Source: Beroe ovata
Taxonomy: Eukaryota; Ctenophora; Nuda; Beroida; Beroidae
Assembly: GCA_946803715.1 (NCBI GenBank)
Contig: CAMPET010000030.1
Coordinates: 156,249 to 214,787, forward strand
Direction of reading: 5' to 3'
DNA length: 58,539 nt
The position numbers and the translations under genes were made by a program. The notes under the pieces are model-generated. The model had not been told where the DNA came from, did no database searches, and saw only the letters and a list, made by a program, of their open reading frames with translations. Positions 10,154-20,200 of the stretch are shown here, one piece after another (positions within the stretch are counted from its first letter, which is position 1; the number at the start of each line of letters is the position of its first letter).

Positions 10154-10700
10154 ATGAGTCAAGCTGATCACATTAACAACTTGCAAAGGCTGTGTCGGGT
10201 ATGTGGCAGTAGGAGAAACAAAGGCCGTCCATATAAATGCCAAACTTATGAAGATGGGTTGAAGGAGATCTTTGGTATTGACATATCAGATGACAAAAAT
10301 GACATTCATCCAAAGTAAGTTCAATGTTCATTGTTCATCCAAAGTAAGTTGAATATTGACCGACTTTTTATCTCATATGCATTATCACATCTTCACATAT
10401 TGACACTACACGCAATGATATTTTTCAGAAACCTCTGCATTAAATGTCAGTTGCTCATATCAGATAATCTTGCTCCTCATGGTAAGATAATTTTGAGAAT
10501 TGAGTCTTCATTTGGGAGAATCGATGCTCCTCCTTTCAATGTACTGAATGAGTTTCCAATACTAAACGAGTTTCCAGTACTAATAACTAATTTCTGTCAT
10601 CATTTTCAGACCTAATTCCAATTGAGTGGAAGGGCCACCATGATGAAGATGACTGTTGGGTCTGTGATGTGAGGAAGCAAACAAAACAAGACACTGTTGT
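10154..10700 (+). CDS. RAG1-like zinc-binding N-terminal domain of the PCGF gene (exons 1-3)
   Basis: The first three exons encode a domain with C14-x2-C17 (LCRVCG), then LKEIFGIDISDD, IHP at 51-53, C57-x2-C60 (LCIKC), W78, H81/H82 and C87-x2-C90 (CWVC). The same order and spacing appear in the RAG1 region just before its RING: an L-C-R-x-C-G start, an F-x-[IV]-D segment, I-H-P-x-x-[LF]-C-x-x-C, then E-W-x-x-H and C-x-[VI]-C. In RAG1 this domain helps dimerise the N-terminus and bind zinc. Exon 3 ends phase 0 at 10812 (ACC before GTAAGT), in register with the RING exon. Confidence 0.72.
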
Positions 10701-12343
10701 ATTACCGAATTCCAACAAGCAGGTATCAAAGAGAGGAAAAGCTGATGTCTCAGAGAAAGAGGTACCTATAGCTGTTCAAAACAGTCTTCATAACCACCTT
10801 ATTAAGGTGACCGTAAGTGATTAATGAGAAATCGAAGCAGTCATGAGTTCAACACATTATATCAAGTTTCAGGCAGATGCTGTGCTGCTATGTGATGTTA
10901 ACGCGTTCATTACTTGTGGCATTTGCAAAGGTTATCTTATTGATGTGGCTACAATAACAGAGTGCCTTCACTCGTGTGAGTTAGCACTTTCCTTCTTATT
11001 ATTTTTATTATTATTAGCACTTTCCTTCTTATTATTTTTTAATAGTCCGATTTGTATCAACACGATGGTTCTAGGACACTAAGTCAACCATCTAGTATTG
11101 GGATGATGTATAAAGCTATATGTAAAGATATGCTAAGTTATGTAAAGACCACTGTCACTTCAGATTGCAAGTCCTGTTTGGTGCAATATCTACAGACAAA
11201 TCAAACCTGTCCCGACTGTGGGATACTGATCCATGAAACAACTCCTTTGCAGAATATTGGGTACGCACTTTCATCTGAATCCTTCCCTTTGTCACCTTTC
11301 TTTTCGAATATCAGTTATATTATAGCGTGCATCTAACTCCTTAGCTTTGATACCAAGTTGCAAGATATCATCTACAAGTTGGTTCCTGGGCTAGCTGACA
11401 ATGAGTCAGGGCGTGTGAAGGATTTCTATGCTGCAAGGAACTCAGCAGCCCCACAGAAAGGTACCCCATCTCGGCCCCTAACACCAGCGGAGTCAGGTGA
11501 TTGTTAACACTGTCTTAAACACATGAGTCTTTGTGCTCACATCACTAAATATTAACACGTGGTGTGTTATTGTCATACCTGTCATGTATAACATAACACC
11601 GACAGCTGATCAGAACAAGTTTCCACCTGATGATGGAAGGACGTGGTTCCATGCACATGATGTAAAGATAGCTCTCTGCATCGAGCCTAAAGAGTAAGTC
11701 ACTGTCCAAAACGCCCTATTTGTTGAGTTCAATAACGATTATAATAAATCCCATCTCTCCTGACCTAATAACGTCTACGCAGGAATGATAGTGCGTTGCA
11801 GCAGATGCCCATGAAGTATGTTCGGTGTTCGATGCGGCTCAAAGTGGAACATCTTGCCAAGTTTATCAAACAGAAGATGTCTATCAGTGTGAGTGTGACA
11901 TGCTGTGGCAATATCCCTTCAGACGGGGTGTTGGTTTGCGTAACGCGCGGTGACACTCACTTTGGTTGTCACGCGCGATTTGTGAACAAATTAAATTAAT
12001 TAATTCAACAAAATCTTTAGATAAATACCGCGCTTTCTGTTCCAAATGGAATGAAGAATTTCCATTTCAAACAACAATGTTCTGAATCACCCGTCACCGA
12101 TCAGATGATCAAAATAATCAGTGATCCTGCATTCCTGACTAAGAAATTCCCAATCAGGATGACCTGGAGTTGACGTGTAACAAGCAGAAACTGAGCGGCG
12201 GATCTACTTTGGAGAACATATGGCTAGATACTTGGAAAGTAAAGGTGATGGTCGTGTATTTCTGTTGTGTTGTTTATTGTTTTGTGAGCCGTGTGCAGTA
12301 CAATGTACATTGTGTGTTTCAAATTGCATGGTATGTATCATGA
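10154..12343 (+). CDS. Polycomb-group RING finger (PCGF) protein with RAG1-like N-terminal zinc domain, nine exons, 382 aa
   Basis: PCGF proteins pair with RING1 in PRC1 to ubiquitylate histone H2A in chromatin. Exons read as 10154-10314, 10429-10481, 10610-10812, 10873-10975, 11164-11260, 11345-11496, 11606-11693, 11783-11888 and 12158-12343. All phases agree and the sum is 1149 nt. ATG 10154 follows an in-frame stop with no ATG between. Residues 14-90 hold a Cys/His domain resembling RAG1's zinc-binding region. Residues 154-192 are a C3HC4 RING most like PCGF3/5, followed by a YKLVPGL segment. Residues about 257-348 are the RAWUL domain. The last 34 residues are Val/Phe/Cys-rich and unlike a normal PCGF end. 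A GTAAAG at 12239 could instead be a donor to a further exon. The family call is strong; the unity of the N-terminal exons with the rest rests on phase. Confidence 0.85.
10873..11260 (+). CDS. PCGF-type RING finger (exons 4-5)
   Basis: Zinc ligands are C154, C157, C170, H172, C175, C178, C189 and C192, a regular C3HC4 set. The sequence reads DVNAFITCGIC, GYLID, TITECLHSYCKSC, YLQTNQTCPDC and ETTPLQNIG. The G-Y-L-I-D and T-x-T-E-C-L-H elements are diagnostic of PCGF proteins, especially PCGF3/5, and set it apart from RAG1's own RING. The codon for Y174 is split across the intron, whose acceptor is at 11161-11163 (CAG). Confidence 0.9.
11606..12240 (+). CDS. RAWUL (ubiquitin-like) domain of the PCGF protein (exons 7-9)
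   Basis: Segments are HDVKIALCIEPKE, then MKYVRCSMRLKVEHLAKFIK, then DDLELTCNKQKLSGGSTLEN and IWLDTWK. The pattern K-Y-[VL]-R-C ... [VM]-x-H-L-x-K-F-[IL] ... L-x-C-N ... L-x-x-x-x-T-L ... I-W is that of RAWUL domains, which bind PRC1 partners. The intron between 11888 and 12158 is phase 0. After TWK the reading continues into an unusual tail to the TGA at 12341. Confidence 0.8.
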
Positions 12344-13995
12344 TGACTGTGTACATGGGTTTGCATAGTAAAATGTATATGGATTGGCATTGTACAATGT
12401 ACAATGTACAGTGTACACTCAGTGTATTTTGATTCATGGTTGCTGACCAGCTGCCAGCAGCTGCACTACGGTACTCTCTTTCCAACAGCCTTTTTGCTTC
12501 CTTTGTGGGAGTTCTGTATGAAAAGCATTCGCACCGGATTTCTCTATGTATGGTTCGATTTGCTGATCCATAGTTTTCTATCAGAGCATGCGATCCCCAA
12601 TTCATATCAACTTAACAACTTATGATCTTATTTACTTGCTATCACTGATTTAGGTGTTTGCTGATTTCCATTATGAATAGCTGATTCTTGCGCAGCATCT
12701 CTTCATGTACCATTAGCATTCGCTGTGTTTTCCCCGCATAGTATAACTGAAGCCAGCACCTCATAAGTGGCTCATATACAACGTTTTGACAGGAGGCTCC
12801 GATGAGGCTGTATTACAATAAAAAGTAGTGTGACGTCACACAGACGTTGTCATCTTGGCAACGAACTCGTTCTTAACCGGCGTCTCTATCGAAACAAGAT
12901 AGACTTTAGATCGGATCAGTATATCTAATCGGGACTATTGCTAAATACTGCTCTGAACTATATAATTCATAATGAAATCAAGTTTCTAGATTAACCTTTT
13001 CCAAACAAATTAACACTTAATCAGCTGTTTACCCGGTGCTTTTAGCCGCTTGTAATATTTCTATGCACTGTTTTACCATTTAATTAAATTCAATAGATAC
13101 TTACATGCAATATTTTATTTCACTAAATCATGTTTTATCTGGCCAGCACTAACATGATTCATGAATTAGACAGTGTTCCATTGTCATGTGCGGCCTCATC
13201 AGCAAATTCATCACTTTAGTTCACGATCTGAGTCAAAATCAAAGCCGTTCGGTTCGAGAAGATGTTTGTAGAATACGGTAAAATACAAGTCTCAAGAAAC
13301 GTAAAGATTTGCTATGATCTAATGTAGAAACTTAACACACGGCAAAATCCTTCATCGTCACACTTTTGAAAGTCTTTCTCTTTTTATTTTGTAAATAAAT
13401 AATAAATAAATGCTATCATGCACGTTCAAAAAGGAAAATACCCGCATTTTGCTACTACGCTTTAGATACTTTTAGTTTGCAAAGTTTTAAAATGCGAAAT
13501 ATTGAAGACCTGTTTCATATCATATAAAACTTGTCTGTAAATGACGTAAAAATCAATGAACGAAACTTCTTAATATACAAATTCTGCTTTAGAAGGTTGA
13601 AATATCAAGACGATATGCAATAAGTTAACACTTATCAATATTAATAACTTTGATGGAGTCTTTAAATTGTCGTTTCTTTTGACTGTAATAATATACGTAT
13701 GATTTCTTATTACAACCCCACTGTATTATTAGTAATTCTCATCGCGAGCTTTGGCAATTTGTTGGAATCGTCTCACTCCGGCGTCTCTCAGAAATGGGCA
13801 TTTTGCCAGAACTAGTACACCTCATCATATCATTTCGTGAGTCTCTCTATTCAGGAGCTACGTTGCTCAATACTCATGTATGTATCCATCGCTAGTCAGC
13901 TCTGTAATATGCCCGATAGCACGTGACAATTACACACGTGACAATTACACCCGTTGTGGAGAAGGGTGCGCGCGGCGCGACACCCTGCACGTGCA
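12344..13995. other. Intergenic stretch between two convergent genes
   Basis: The stretch holds the presumed 3' UTRs of the PCGF gene (plus) and of the potassium-channel gene (minus). Features seen are repeated TGTACA words at 12388-12416, a TGACGTCA site near 12831, AT-rich sequence with AATAAATAAATAATAAA near 13393-13410, and two copies of ACACGTGACAATTACAC at 13918-13950. No exon is seen. Confidence 0.5.
12817..12822 (+). promoter_or_regulatory. Candidate polyadenylation signal of the PCGF gene
   Basis: AATAAA lies about 470 nt past the stop codon at 12343, on the coding strand, in a TTACAATAAAAAG context. It is the first clear signal I noticed downstream. No independent support. Confidence 0.35.
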
Positions 13996-14265
13996 CTATG
14001 CCTTCACTTCTCCTCCTTCTCCCTCGTCCTCCTCGTCCGAGGAGACGTATCGCTCGTCCTCCTGGTACTTTAGGTCGTCGTAGCACGAGCTGAACTTACT
14101 CACGATGATTGTCATTGGCAGCGCCAGGAATATCATGGACAGGAACACGACCGCTGATCCGAGCACTTTCCCGGCGCCCGTTTGCGGGACAAGGTCTCCG
14201 TACCCGACCGTTGACATGGTAACAACTGCCCACCAGCATCCAATCATAATTGAATCGAAACCCTT
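13996..14265 (-). CDS. Kv pore helix, selectivity filter, S6 and C-terminus (last exon)
   Basis: The acceptor is CTCTTTCAG. The exon begins KGFDSIMIGCWWAVVTMSTV with the filter TVGYGDL, then the S6 LALPMTIIVSKF. Where most Kv channels have the Pro-x-Pro hinge (PVP), this one has PMT, keeping only the first Pro. The tail is 30 or so residues, ending in an acidic run, with no PDZ-binding S/T-x-V end. The stop is a TAG at 13996-13998. Confidence 0.95.
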   Translation of the reverse strand, partial: KGFDSIMIGCWWAVVTMSTVGYGDLVPQTGAGKVLGSAVVFLSMIFLALPMTIIVSKFSSCYDDLKYQEDERYVSSDEEDEGEGGEVKA

Positions 14266-17200
14266 CTGAAAGAGTGAATCAAATCGGTTCGTATCAAAGG
14301 TGAGCTGATATCAGCAGCTATCTTAGGCTGCTCTATGCTCATGTTGACGCAAAATTTTCGACAATGACCTCAACAAATTTGTTGAATTCAACCACGATAA
14401 GCGCATGCTCAATGGCAATGATGATGTTGAAATGGATTAGCGAATAACTCTGAAAATGTCGTGTATTTGGCCATGCATGTATCAGGAGCAGCTGTAACAG
14501 CACGATAAGATTTGACATCACCATGGTAATGAAGAAATTGGTTATGATTCCATCGATAATTCATTGTAGTATGGGCAAAGTGTCCTGTATCATTCTAATC
14601 ACCCCTAAATCGTCATGCTGGCAATTTTGTCAGGGTTAGCTAGAGTTAACCCTCTTCTGATGAGTGGCCGCAAGCCCATGCCTGGTCACGAAAACAGTTT
14701 GAACTGTTTTTTTGGAGAACAGTTCTCATTAAAATGACACGGGCTAACAACAACTTTTAACGGGCAGTAAATCAGTGAGAATTTGAACCCTCTTTTTACA
14801 AAATCAAGCGCATTTCATCCGTTCACCGTTAGAATACGGGACGTTCATGTTGTAAAATAGATCAAATAGAATAAATTTTCAAAAGTAAAGCAAGTACAAG
14901 TGTATCACCGAGCGTTGATTTGAAGAATGATAATCCGAAAATCAGTGATAGAAAATGATCGGAATATGTGCGAGTTAACCCATCAATTATCGTCCGCAAA
15001 TCACCGCTCTTTAAAACGCATGGAGATCTAGATTGTGTGTGTATTTGTGATGTCTCGCTAGGTGTTTCTCAATTCCCTTTCCAATGGGTCTCACTAGGAT
15101 ACACCCCATCAGGAAAAACAGCACAGCAATTGATATTTGGATGGCTTGTATAATACAGCTGATATTCATTATTGTTGACATCGGAACGCTGTTTAAAAGA
15201 TATATACGTCATTTGGTACAAGACACCGGAAACAATCACGTGCACGAATTTTTAGTGACTAAATGATCTGCGAAATTTGGGAGTCATGGTTACCATCGCT
15301 TTTGATCATACGGAATTTTATTTCAGTTATGCGGGAATGACAGGATTTTTGAAACTTTTTGGTCCCTTAATTAACAGCTAAGTCATGCTCCGTGAGCGGG
15401 ATGCACAAGCGAGTATGTTACAGGGAAACTGTGACTACCGGAGACACATGTATGTATATTGCATCATTGATCTACAGGAGACACATTCTCAGCATGTATG
15501 CATATTGCATCATTGAGCTAATTAGGGACAACAGTTTCTGAACAGCTCATTGCTCCAAGGTAACGATAAGGTCTAGTCACGATCGTTACGTACACTCGTT
15601 ACAGTCACACATATTGCTATCTTTGTGTCATATAGTTGAGCTTCTCACGAAATACACGAGGCGTTACAGACAGCATGCTTTATTTAACACTGAGCTTTGA
15701 TATACTTATGATAGCACACATTTTTACACAAAACTTTTTTCAAACAATTTAGCAATGGTCACATTTAGCAAAAATACAGATAGCAAAAAACAACATTCAG
15801 CGAGACACCACATCAAGACAGTGATGGTGATCGGCTTATTCATCCCAGATCCACGGTGTCATTCTCCAGGAGAGGGCCATGGTGGTGTCAAGTGGTGTCA
15901 CACATTGGACATGGTGCATTCTGCTGCCCGGTGGGGGCTGGCCTGCAGCTTACGACAGCTCATTGTTTGATATGCTCTCCTGGAACGGCCATATGCAGCA
16001 GGTGCTCGCTACAGTGCCAAGATCTCTGTTATCATGGCATTATTACATACCAGACACATTTCCAGAGGACCATGAGGAGAGGGGTAGACTGATATAAATG
16101 AGAGGCGGGGGCAGTGTGAGCACGGAGCATACCACCGTTCCAGGGAGAAAGTCGAGCGCTGCATGCCGACACAGAGCTCATGATCAGGTCGCACACACGG
16201 ACAGGAATGCACACACGTGCACATACAGACACATGTAGTGAGAGGGGGAGAGAGAGAGGAACGTGTGTCTGCTACATCGTCATGCGTTTATATTGTGTAT
16301 ACACCTTGTACTTACGGAAGTCTCGTTACTGCCAGGACTCACTGGGTGACCACTATCGGCGTAGTAGATGATGGAGCCGAACGTCACGATGCCAATCATC
16401 CAGAGGAGAACCAGGATACTCAACTCGTTCAGACTGAGTGGAGGAGGAAAAGAGTGAGGGGAGGAGTGAGGGGAGGAGTTAGTGGAGTAAGAAAAGAGTG
16501 GGCATGGAGAGATCAGAGTGAGATGTGATTTAGTTCTTTAGTCGAGGGGTAGGAGGTGAGAAGAGAATGAGGGACTGAGGATGGGTTTATGGTGATAAGA
16601 GGTGAACCATAGTGAGTTTTAGTGGGCATCAACTTGGGAGTTTGGAACGGAAAGGTGTGAAGAGCGGGAAGAAGGGAGGGTCAGGCATGTAGGGAATGTG
16701 TGAATGTGTGAAAGAAGCTTTGTGATGTTAAACGTTGGTATTGTGGGATAGATAGTAGGACGTAATGGAGACGACACTGTACTTAGTACCTATAGACTAT
16801 AATAGTGTCTTTCTAGAGACATTGGTCATCATTCCTTATTTCCATGCATGAGTAAAATGCGCAGTCTATAAGGTCGTATTATTCTCGTTACCGATGATAG
16901 ACATGATAATATGCCAAGATAATAAACGCATAAATGCACGCAGCTCATCTGTCATTCTATAATAGTATAATGAAGCCCTCTAAATTTTTGCATGTAGTCT
17001 TAGACTCAGTAAACTGCCATTTAACTTTTGAGCGAGTTAACAGCTTATTAACTGGGAAAAAACATCGCAGCCCAGTCCAAACAATGTAGTGGTGTTATAG
17101 CCAGAAACTCTTGCTATCACTGGTGACACCCAGAATGACGCAAAAAATCATGACCTTGAATCCAAGAGGCAAGAACCATACATTTTAAAACTGTAAAAAA

Positions 17201-20200
17201 TAACCTGAACTTTCCTCTACACTAGCAGTAGTCGGACAGCCCTAGATCACTCAAAACTGATGTGCTGTTGGTGGGCGTCGAAAATTGGCACGAAATTTCA
17301 GGCGGTAGTCCGAATCGGCATGCCCTGATCTGAGGTGGTTAGATAACTAACCTCTTTTTGAGGACGGTGACAATAATCATAAGCTGTTCGCTGTGTCTTG
17401 CCAACTTTAGGAGTCTTATCACTCGCATTAACCTCAGCACCTGCGAAGATAGGGATATTATTCACAGAGTTGTTAGACCACACTTTTTATGTAGAAGGAG
17501 CACTAGCAAGGTTTCACCTTGAAAATAACCTATCGTGGAATGTATTCCAGTTATTCACATGTTTTGAATCGGATAAAAATATACCATTCTATTTTTAGCC
17601 TAACCAATAATGCATAATGCATATTTCCTGATCAAAAAGCAGGTGTGAGCCGTGAGGTGGAATGTTACTGGATTCTTCGTGAAAAAACATTTCAAGGGGC
17701 TTGGCCGGGAATTGAACCCGGGACCTCTCGCACCCTAAGCGAGAATCATACCACTAGACCACCAAGCCGGTGGACGAGTTTCATTTACAGTCATCCTAAA
17801 TTCGATTAGACTTTGTGACTGATTATGGAATGCGATGATCATGTATTACCTTGAGCGCGACAAATTGGCCTTTCCCAACATCTTGGCTATCAGCTGCGCT
17901 ATCCATCTCAACTTCCAACATGATACTGCTGCTCTCCTTTGATACCAAGTTCTCAGTTATGAGTTGAATGAAGAACGGCAATATCGCCAGAAAGTCTAAC
18001 CAGTTCAACACTGACTTAATGAAGTTGCATTTCCCGGGCCACACAACGAAGCGTACCACAAAGTCAAATAAGAAAAATATGACACACCCCGCATCACCCC
18101 AGAAGAAAATGTGATGCCAAACTGAGTCTTTCCTGATGATCCTCTCCTTGAAGTATGGTTCGGTCTCTGCAATGAAGAGGATGATGGAACAGAGGATGAA
18201 AAACGTATCGATGCACGCCCATGCTCGCGATCTGATGTCCTCGCCAGGTTCGGCGACTATATAGTAAATCTTCCGCTGCCATCGTGGCCAGTTCGTGAAC
18301 CTCCTCGGTTTCTTCTTCGTTGTTGCGGCAGCAGCGTCCTCCTGACTGTTCCTTGCTGTTATTCTGAAAAACTCCAACTCCGTTTCAAACTGAAACAGGG
18401 ATAAATTATTAAACTCTGGTTGTTATGTTGTATTTTTGCACACACATGTTACCCAATTATTCCTCCACACTGATACTAGTGATAGCAAATTATTATTCGA
18501 TAACGATTACTCGATTACATCCATGTAAGTCTAGATCATCCACCAATTGTGTTTCATAATGCTATTTTCATAACTGCATGTCCTTGCTGCTCAGCTACAC
18601 ACATGAATAATGAATATTCCGGAGGACGCTACTCCTGATCGCTATTATGTTTGCCGAGTCGTTAGCCAATGCGCCCATAGTTACGCTCATATGCACGCAT
18701 AATTTGTCATAATATAAGATGCGATGGATCGGTTATCTGATTATAGATGGTTTCACCTGCTCCACCGCGGTAATCTCCCCAGGAGATGGAGTCACGTGAC
18801 AGCACGTTATCATTATCCTATGTTCTAGTGATGCATTGTACCTGTATATACCTATCGGAACTCGGTGAGTTTAGTGCCCGCGTTCAAAGCGCACGCATAG
18901 TGTGTAAATAGGGCACGTTGATGAATGCATAAAAGTGCAGGCATGGCATGTGCAAAGAGTCGCAGATGTCTCAATGTCACGGTATTGATAAAATCTGGAC
19001 AGGTTTTTGTACGGTTTGACGTAGCGCGCATGAGTCGATGATGGAGGTCGTGTTAAGTCAAGCACTATGTTAGCACTATATCCGGGTCTAATGAACGCAG
19101 TATGCCGTGTTGAAAACACATGTAGGAATACTTTCAGATTCCTATATTTAATTGTGTATTCTAAACTGTATATACCTAATCAAGGAAATCAAATTATGAT
19201 AGCGTAATTGCGTAATTAAGGAACCATCCGATGCAGAAGTAATAAAGGAACCATCATCGTGCTATTTAGACTTGAATTCATCACTAATGAGTTATTGGGG
19301 AACAATAAGTTAGCAAACTCACATCTTTCAATTCAAGTGAGTTAGGGCATTGTAGATGTCCTGTTCTGTAGAAATTGAGAATCGCTTCGAAAGCTTTTCT
19401 GTTCCTGGATAGGGAATAGTGTTAATCATTTCAAGTTGGTTACTATCAAATTGAATTTTCAAATTTGACTAAATACCTACTTCTGTATGTCATTTCAATC
19501 CATAACGTTGTTATAAGTCAGCAGATTATCCTCATAGGCATTTAAAATGAAATATTGCGATATTAATTCTAGACTAGATGTCGTCACTCTACGAGGGATA
19601 TCCATAAGTGTGGCAATTGTCACTTGATTAAGCAATCAGCTCGATACATGAGGTTGAATTCCCAAGAGTATTTGGACCTGATACTCTTATAGTAGTAAGT
19701 AAAACACGTAATCGAGGTCATAGATCTTTGATGATGGTTAATAGATTGGTACCTATGGTATTCTGTAAATGATAAACATTGGACTTTCTCCACTCGAACC
19801 TTATATTGATCACAGGAATGGAGCAAAATTCTTCACCTAGATAATCTTTGAACTTGATCTTATGATTTGAATTGTTACCTGTCGAAGAAGTAACAATTGA
19901 GTTCCTTGTTGAAGTGACACTCCCTGTCAGTGCTGCCTAGCAAAGTGTCTGGGTAGTTTGACAGGGTTGACAGGTAGGTGTTGTACTTGTATCCTGAGAA
20001 AGGGAGAGGTTGGGTGAGTGAGAGGGGTGGCGCGCCCCTCTTGAGCGTGGTAGGAACCAAACCGAGTGGAGTCTTGACTTCTTTCTCAACATAGCCTTAC
20101 CTGGGCCGGCCCTACCTTGAATCATTACCAACTATTCATCATCATGATCATTGTGTATTGAATTAGAATACCTATTAATTAATTAATGAATTAGAATACC

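Follow-up and report, generated by a model that had tools for sequence, protein, structure and literature searches.

A predicted gene fusing a zinc domain like the central non-core domain of RAG1 to a Polycomb RING-RAWUL protein

Why should a zinc-binding domain that resembles part of RAG1 stand directly upstream of the RING of a Polycomb protein? As far as the literature available to us in part describes it, the central non-core domain (CND) region of RAG1 occurs only in RAG1, RAG1-like sequences, Chapaev/Transib-type elements and N-RAG-TP. A conserved CND in a Polycomb protein provides a second, recombinase-free context for studying its function. Such a fusion makes two further matters testable. 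One is whether a PCGF protein can bring its DNA-targeting part along on its own chain; the other is whether the domain passed from host chromatin proteins to the forerunners of the V(D)J recombinase or in the opposite direction.

The predicted gene lies on the plus strand of the window, by which we mean the whole 58.5 kb stretch of DNA that was analysed. Its features are as follows.

10154 to 12828, plus strand: whole coding region, ten exons, 361 codons and a stop, open frame, GT-AG at 9/9 introns
10154-10314, 10429-10481, 10610-10812, 10873-10975 and 11164-11260, plus strand: coding exons 1 to 5
11345-11496, 11606-11693, 11783-11888, 12158-12244 and 12793-12828, plus strand: coding exons 6 to 10
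10154 to 10671, plus strand: RAG1 CND-like zinc domain, residues 1-92, in exons 1, 2 and the start of exon 3
10672 to 10812, plus strand: poorly conserved linker, covering what remains of exon 3 up to a phase-0 intron
10897 to 11231, plus strand: RING, residues 148-196, in exons 4 and 5 (Pfam zf-C3HC4, 1.2e-9)
11606 to 12828, plus strand: RAWUL region, exons 7 to 10, by homology to the predicted protein P0001

The initial annotation placed the zinc domain immediately upstream of the RING, and the splice agrees with this. The intron between exons 3 and 4 is 60 bases long, in phase 0 and GT-AG, and keeps the frame into the RING exons. Exons 4 to 10 encode the RING, the PCGF region that follows it and the RAWUL. 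Exons 9 and 10, the latter encoding EAPMRLYYNKK and the stop, were placed with three related predicted proteins (P0001, P0002 and P0003) as a guide. When the next 6000 bases were scanned with the C-terminal residues of these homologues (BLOSUM62), the last exon scored 56 and the best place elsewhere 17. Coding extends to 12828, and the end previously given for the gene, 12343, falls inside the last intron. An alternative last exon at 12021, ending ...FPIRMTWS, was ruled out by the C-termini of P0001 and P0002. The 371-residue draft that contained it was the query in the whole-protein Pfam and PDB searches and in the search of about 5.8 billion predicted proteins, while the final 361-residue model was used for the later profile search and for the identity figures. 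The donor region of exon 1, TTCATCCAAAGTAAGTT (window 10300-10350), is repeated about 32 bases downstream (10333-10349), where there is a possible second donor.

Genes in the window are intron-rich. On the minus strand there is a voltage-gated-type ion channel frame at 13996-14310 (Ion_trans_2, 1.4e-12, with a TVGYGD motif) and a second channel frame at 17823-18422 (Ion_trans, 9e-11), perhaps of the same gene. Genes rich in introns and channel frames of this kind would point to an animal genome. A tRNA-Pro (AGG) gene at 17696-17768, also on the minus strand, lies 55 bases from the second frame.

The zinc motifs that had been noticed in exons 1-3 are all found in the translation: C14-x2-C17, F40-G-I-D, I-H-P-K-N-L-C57-x2-C60, W78-x2-H81 and C87-x2-C90. 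Comparison with Pfam bears out the likeness to RAG1. The isolated domains of the window protein, P0001 and P0002 score 30.6, 29.2 and 29.2 bits against RAG1_imp_bd (PF12560), so that all three pass its curated cut-off of 23.3 bits, and it is the best Pfam family for each (E-values of 3.4e-7, 8.9e-7 and 9e-7). As whole proteins, the window draft, P0001 and P0002 score 28.3, 30.6 and 23.5 bits. P0003, which carries only the end of the zinc domain, falls below the cut-off at 22.5 bits. When 177,635 distinct PDB sequences were searched with a profile of the three isolated domains, RAG1 headed the ranking, with 21wb at 4.1e-6 and full-length chains at 7.7e-4, while the first unrelated chain had an E-value of 0.33. 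The window domain as a single query is a weaker witness: 21wb was again first at 0.0019, but full-length RAG1 at 0.02 was close to an unrelated cytochrome b5 at 0.029. Mouse RAG1 scores 28.5 bits against the 3-sequence domain profile. None of 2000 shuffled versions of the mouse domain reached this score when the cysteines were kept in place (best 11.3 bits), and none of a further 2000 did so when Cys, His and Trp all kept their positions (best 13.0).

The alignments point the same way. With hhalign the match to mouse RAG1 has a probability of 94.7 over 79 columns, stopping before the last cysteine pair. In a MAFFT alignment C110/113, C175/178 and C210/213 of RAG1 are all paired with cysteines of the window protein, P0001 and P0002, and 18 columns, including the six cysteines, W203 and H206, are identical across these three and mouse RAG1. 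Arbuckle and colleagues mutated the same six cysteines and found them to be needed for the integrity of the RAG1 CND (PMC3124419). The final part of the zinc domain of P0003, VEWEPHSEDCTVC, aligns to mouse RAG1, VEWHPHTPSCDIC, with no gaps. The His of the I-H-P motif is replaced by Gln in P0002. AlphaFold, given 22 alignment rows for P0001 and 2 for residues 1-110 of that protein, yielded models of low mean pLDDT, 55.3 and 52.8, respectively. Taken at the level of sequence, these comparisons confirm that residues 1-92 of the predicted protein match the zinc-binding CND of RAG1. The name zinc-binding dimerisation domain, used in the initial annotation, has to be dropped, as the part of RAG1 that matches is the CND (87-217) and not the RING-containing dimerisation domain (265-380).

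To what extent is the same fusion found elsewhere? The draft gave 44 matches at E <= 1e-5 among the roughly 5.8 billion predicted proteins. P0001 (356 residues) and P0002 (352 residues) have the whole zinc domain-RING-RAWUL architecture, and P0003 (303 residues), whose first residues are M-V-E-W-E-P-H, sets in part-way along the zinc domain and has the RING and RAWUL after it. Their identities to the final model are 58%, 55% and 48% at coverages of 99%, 99% and 79%. The contigs from which they derive, of 1324, 1407 and 1124 bases, leave scant space for introns, so these are probably transcripts. In P0001 and P0002 a single reading frame spans both parts, so the assignment of exons 1-3 and the RING exons to one gene is upheld. 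A profile search with the final model gave 1128 matches at E <= 1, and the listing covers 120 of these. Within it P0001, P0002 and P0003 stand at 685, 688 and 467 bits, followed by a match at 233 bits. With 3 of the 120 matches listed (of 1128) carrying it, the fusion is rare among them, yet not private to the genome of the window. RAG1_imp_bd is absent from the precomputed Pfam annotation of the other PCGF matches listed. Residues 1-140 alone as a protein-search query gave 23 candidates, none at E <= 1, but since this search missed P0001 and P0002 its empty result carries scant meaning. Among the papers listed by searches of the open-licence PMC literature there was none on a fusion of PCGF and the RAG1 CND.

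The window protein and P0001 agree at 53 of 85 positions of the zinc domain, at 34 of 49 of the RING and at 71 of 98 of the RAWUL region, whereas in the linker they agree at 10 of 34 aligned positions, with 16 gapped. The zinc domain is thus conserved almost as strongly as the RING. In a tree of the RING-RAWUL regions the four fusion sequences form one clade with support of 100/99; an earlier 26-row tree with long branches also recovered the clade (93/98), with no placement among the PCGFs. Together these comparisons confirm 10154-12828 as a predicted gene in which a RAG1 CND-like zinc domain is fused to a Polycomb RING-RAWUL (PCGF) protein.

The C-terminal part had been described as plainly PCGF3/5-like. 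The RING and RAWUL of a PCGF protein are indeed predicted, but the subclass is less plain than that. In the PDB the draft matched PCGF1 (2.6e-42, draft residues 143-320), a RING2-BMI1 chimera (1e-37), BMI1 (4.9e-37) and PCGF5 (1.1e-29, a shorter chain). The Pfam RAWUL family is found in P0001, P0002 and P0003 at 1.3e-18, 3.2e-16 and 6.4e-15; the draft, with its wrong C-terminus, gave 3.4e-6, below the cut-off, and the corrected end aligns with the three proteins. Among the matches listed, the database relatives of the final model are a mix of PCGF3 and PCGF1. The tree groups the fusion with a Halichondria protein and PCGF3 (97/95), and the topology tests gave p-AU values of 0.388 for the fusion with PCGF3, 0.248 with Halichondria and 0.142 with PCGF1, which is thus not rejected. 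The tree leans to PCGF3 as a tentative subclass. Contig C4 of the same genome has a second, divergent PCGF-like gene; in the part of it that could be read, downstream of its start, the visible frames give RING and PCGF pieces and no CND.

Given a CND followed by a RING in both proteins, the initial annotation had supposed that the two might be an old module common to a Polycomb protein and RAG1. Draft residues 29-194 do align with RAG1 147-330 in the PDB (3.9e-7), a figure that combines the CND match with the RING match. The RING of RAG1 does not support the idea: among 60 of its 140 matches listed, the nearest outside RAG1 are the RINGs of TRIM21, BRCA1, RNF125, TRAF6 and the UHRF type, and the lone entry containing PCGF sequence is the RING2-BMI1 chimera, matched over stretch 30-85 in its RING2-like part. 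The order of CND and RING is common to both proteins but their RINGs are not close kin, so that independent joining in the PCGF fusion and in RAG1 would be the simpler reading.

What might the domain do in such a protein? The isolated RAG1 CND is a monomer that binds two zinc ions and, in a zinc-dependent manner and at 0.8-3 uM, double-stranded DNA, and it has a part in bringing RAG1 to the nucleus (PMC3124419), while the RING region of RAG1 ubiquitinates histone H3 (PMC3949197). Mammalian PRC1 variants rely on separate targeting proteins, namely KDM2B, MGA/E2F6 and USF1 (PMC6561742). By analogy, we propose that the predicted protein would belong to a PRC1-type ubiquitin ligase acting on histone H2A, and that its CND may equip this ligase from within for contacting DNA and for reaching the nucleus, a proposal to which we would give an even chance. 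The partner of the RING would be a RING1 protein; the genome has a candidate gene for one (RING1-like pieces on contig C388 at 82%, 69% and 56% identity), and together the two would attach ubiquitin to H2A. Like the CND of RAG1, that of the predicted protein would bind zinc and have a weak affinity for double-stranded DNA, and in this way it may do in cis, on the same chain, what KDM2B, MGA/E2F6 and USF1 do as separate proteins.

The main rival is that the domain makes a protein contact, as an adaptor, importin-binding or dimer-forming part, and not a DNA contact, the protein still being a PCGF subunit of PRC1. An acidic run (EDD/DDDDD) precedes the last cysteine pair and the linker is only mildly basic, with 9 Lys/Arg in 50, features that fit DNA binding poorly. 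ZAD, a family to which the domain is weakly similar, forms dimers, and Drosophila insulator proteins need their ZAD to localise to the nucleus (PMC5081699), and the Pfam model RAG1_imp_bd takes its name from importin binding. However, the DNA binding and monomeric state reported for the isolated RAG1 CND (PMC3124419) run counter to such a role, which we regard as a real possibility, though a rather unlikely one.

Turning from the DNA-contact proposal to the origin of the domain, Kapitonov and Koonin described Chapa, a domain of the Chapaev and TransibSU transposases, as corresponding to the N-terminal part of RAG1, with a RING after it in two Chapaev subgroups (PMC4411706), and N-RAG-TP of Aplysia is a RAG1 N-terminal-like sequence (PMC8355894). 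Chapa and the RAG1 CND would then be one domain, an equation drawn from published descriptions and not from sequence. Several groups of transposons are on record as having the domain, the fusion is rare among the matches listed, and Halichondria P0054 (224 residues, with its RING from residue 16), the sole sponge protein among them, does not have it; capture by a PCGF gene therefore seems likelier. The domain would have joined the PCGF gene once, in an ancestor of the four known sequences, perhaps via the phase-0 intron, and a RAG/Chapaev-type element is more likely to have been its source than its recipient.

The opposite direction, in which the domain was first in a host Polycomb gene and RAG/Chapaev-type transposons took it from there, draws on the presence of the fusion in four sequences as divergent as 48-58% identity, on the RING-like constraint on the zinc domain, and on the searches for a second CND in the genome (77.8 Mb in 534 contigs), which found none but have little power across introns. 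We nevertheless think it improbable, given the several transposon groups on record (PMC4411706, PMC8355894), the rarity of the fusion (3/120 matches listed, of 1128) and a RAG1 RING that is not PCGF-like among the 60 of 140 matches listed. It would likewise be a long shot that an old Polycomb lineage used the CND as the DNA-targeting part of PRC1 and that RAG/Chapaev transposons drew it from such a host protein; if this were true, part of the V(D)J recombinase would have started out as a targeting domain of a Polycomb protein.

The same genome was searched for further copies of the domain, and a possible donor for capture by the PCGF gene was looked at. The domain's own sequence as query hit three places, all within the 10154-12828 gene, and the domain profile over 47 genome sequences found the domain solely there. 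A degenerate codon pattern gave 25 matches compared with 19 in a backwards control. Genome searches with PF12560 and PF12940 had no match even at 14 controls, PF12560 missing the 10154-12828 gene itself, so they say nothing on absence; the mouse CND as query likewise missed this gene. Around the gene 9 inverted-repeat pairs were seen, none convincing as transposon ends. Contigs C26, C37, C193, C459 and C475 carry a low-copy, dispersed family of transposase-like frames, the copies being 42-53% identical to one another. The one on C26 faintly resembles the RAG1 core (0.0176; 0.0059 in Pfam, under the cut-off; 0.16 in the PDB). A second C26 frame was without a Pfam match, as were five others, four of them on C37 and one on C26. 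Six loci of the family were examined for a CND and gave none, the best E-value being 1.2. The family is a possible donor.

Could the domain instead be ZAD-type, or another treble-cysteine domain that resembles the RAG1 CND without close kinship? Such a domain might explain why the single-sequence PDB match to RAG1 is just 0.0019, and the isolated domains of the window protein, P0001 and P0002 do match zf-AD at 0.011 (16.4 bits), 6.6e-5 (23.5 bits) and 2.4e-5 (24.9 bits). All of these are below the zf-AD cut-off of 28 bits, while RAG1_imp_bd is above its own each time. The initial annotation had named a better match to ZAD as grounds for refutation; ZAD comes second, the corresponding RAG1_imp_bd values being 3.4e-7, 8.9e-7 and 9e-7. 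The ZAD of arthropod zinc-finger factors has in common with our domain the first two cysteine pairs and the weak profile match, whereas the third cysteine pair and W-x2-H, which align with RAG1, lie outside the matched part. In addition, the mouse RAG1 CND itself matches zf-AD weakly (0.0067), so the ZAD likeness is common to it and is not evidence against the assignment to RAG1. We consider this alternative very improbable. Scarcely credible is the idea that two adjacent genes were joined by mistake in the prediction or the assembly, since, though the window protein is a hand-spliced model, P0001, P0002 and P0003 keep the same order with conserved sequence on either side and the exon 3-4 intron is a frame-keeping GT-AG intron of 60 bases.

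With the domain taken as RAG1 CND-like, the predicted protein may be set beside known systems. With the RAG1 CND it has in common three C-x2-C pairs, W-x2-H, F-x-I-D and the place upstream of a RING, though the first two cysteine pairs are separated by 61 residues in RAG1 and by 39 here. A RAG1 or RAG1-like recombinase differs further, as the RING of the window protein leads into PCGF sequence, RAWUL and a stop, with no Transib-type catalytic core. Chapa of Chapaev and TransibSU, and N-RAG-TP, have, by their descriptions (PMC4411706, PMC8355894), an N-terminal zinc part in common with RAG1, but these are transposon proteins, while the window gene has neither a transposase core nor convincing terminal repeats. 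PCGF1-6 of PRC1 have the RING and RAWUL in common with it and, among the PCGF matches listed other than P0001-P0003, are without RAG1_imp_bd. Finally, in PRC1.1-KDM2B, PRC1.6-MGA/E2F6 and PRC1.3-USF1 a PCGF complex is supplied with a DNA-binding part, as the window gene may also do; there it is a separate targeting protein (PMC6561742), whereas here it would lie within the PCGF chain itself.
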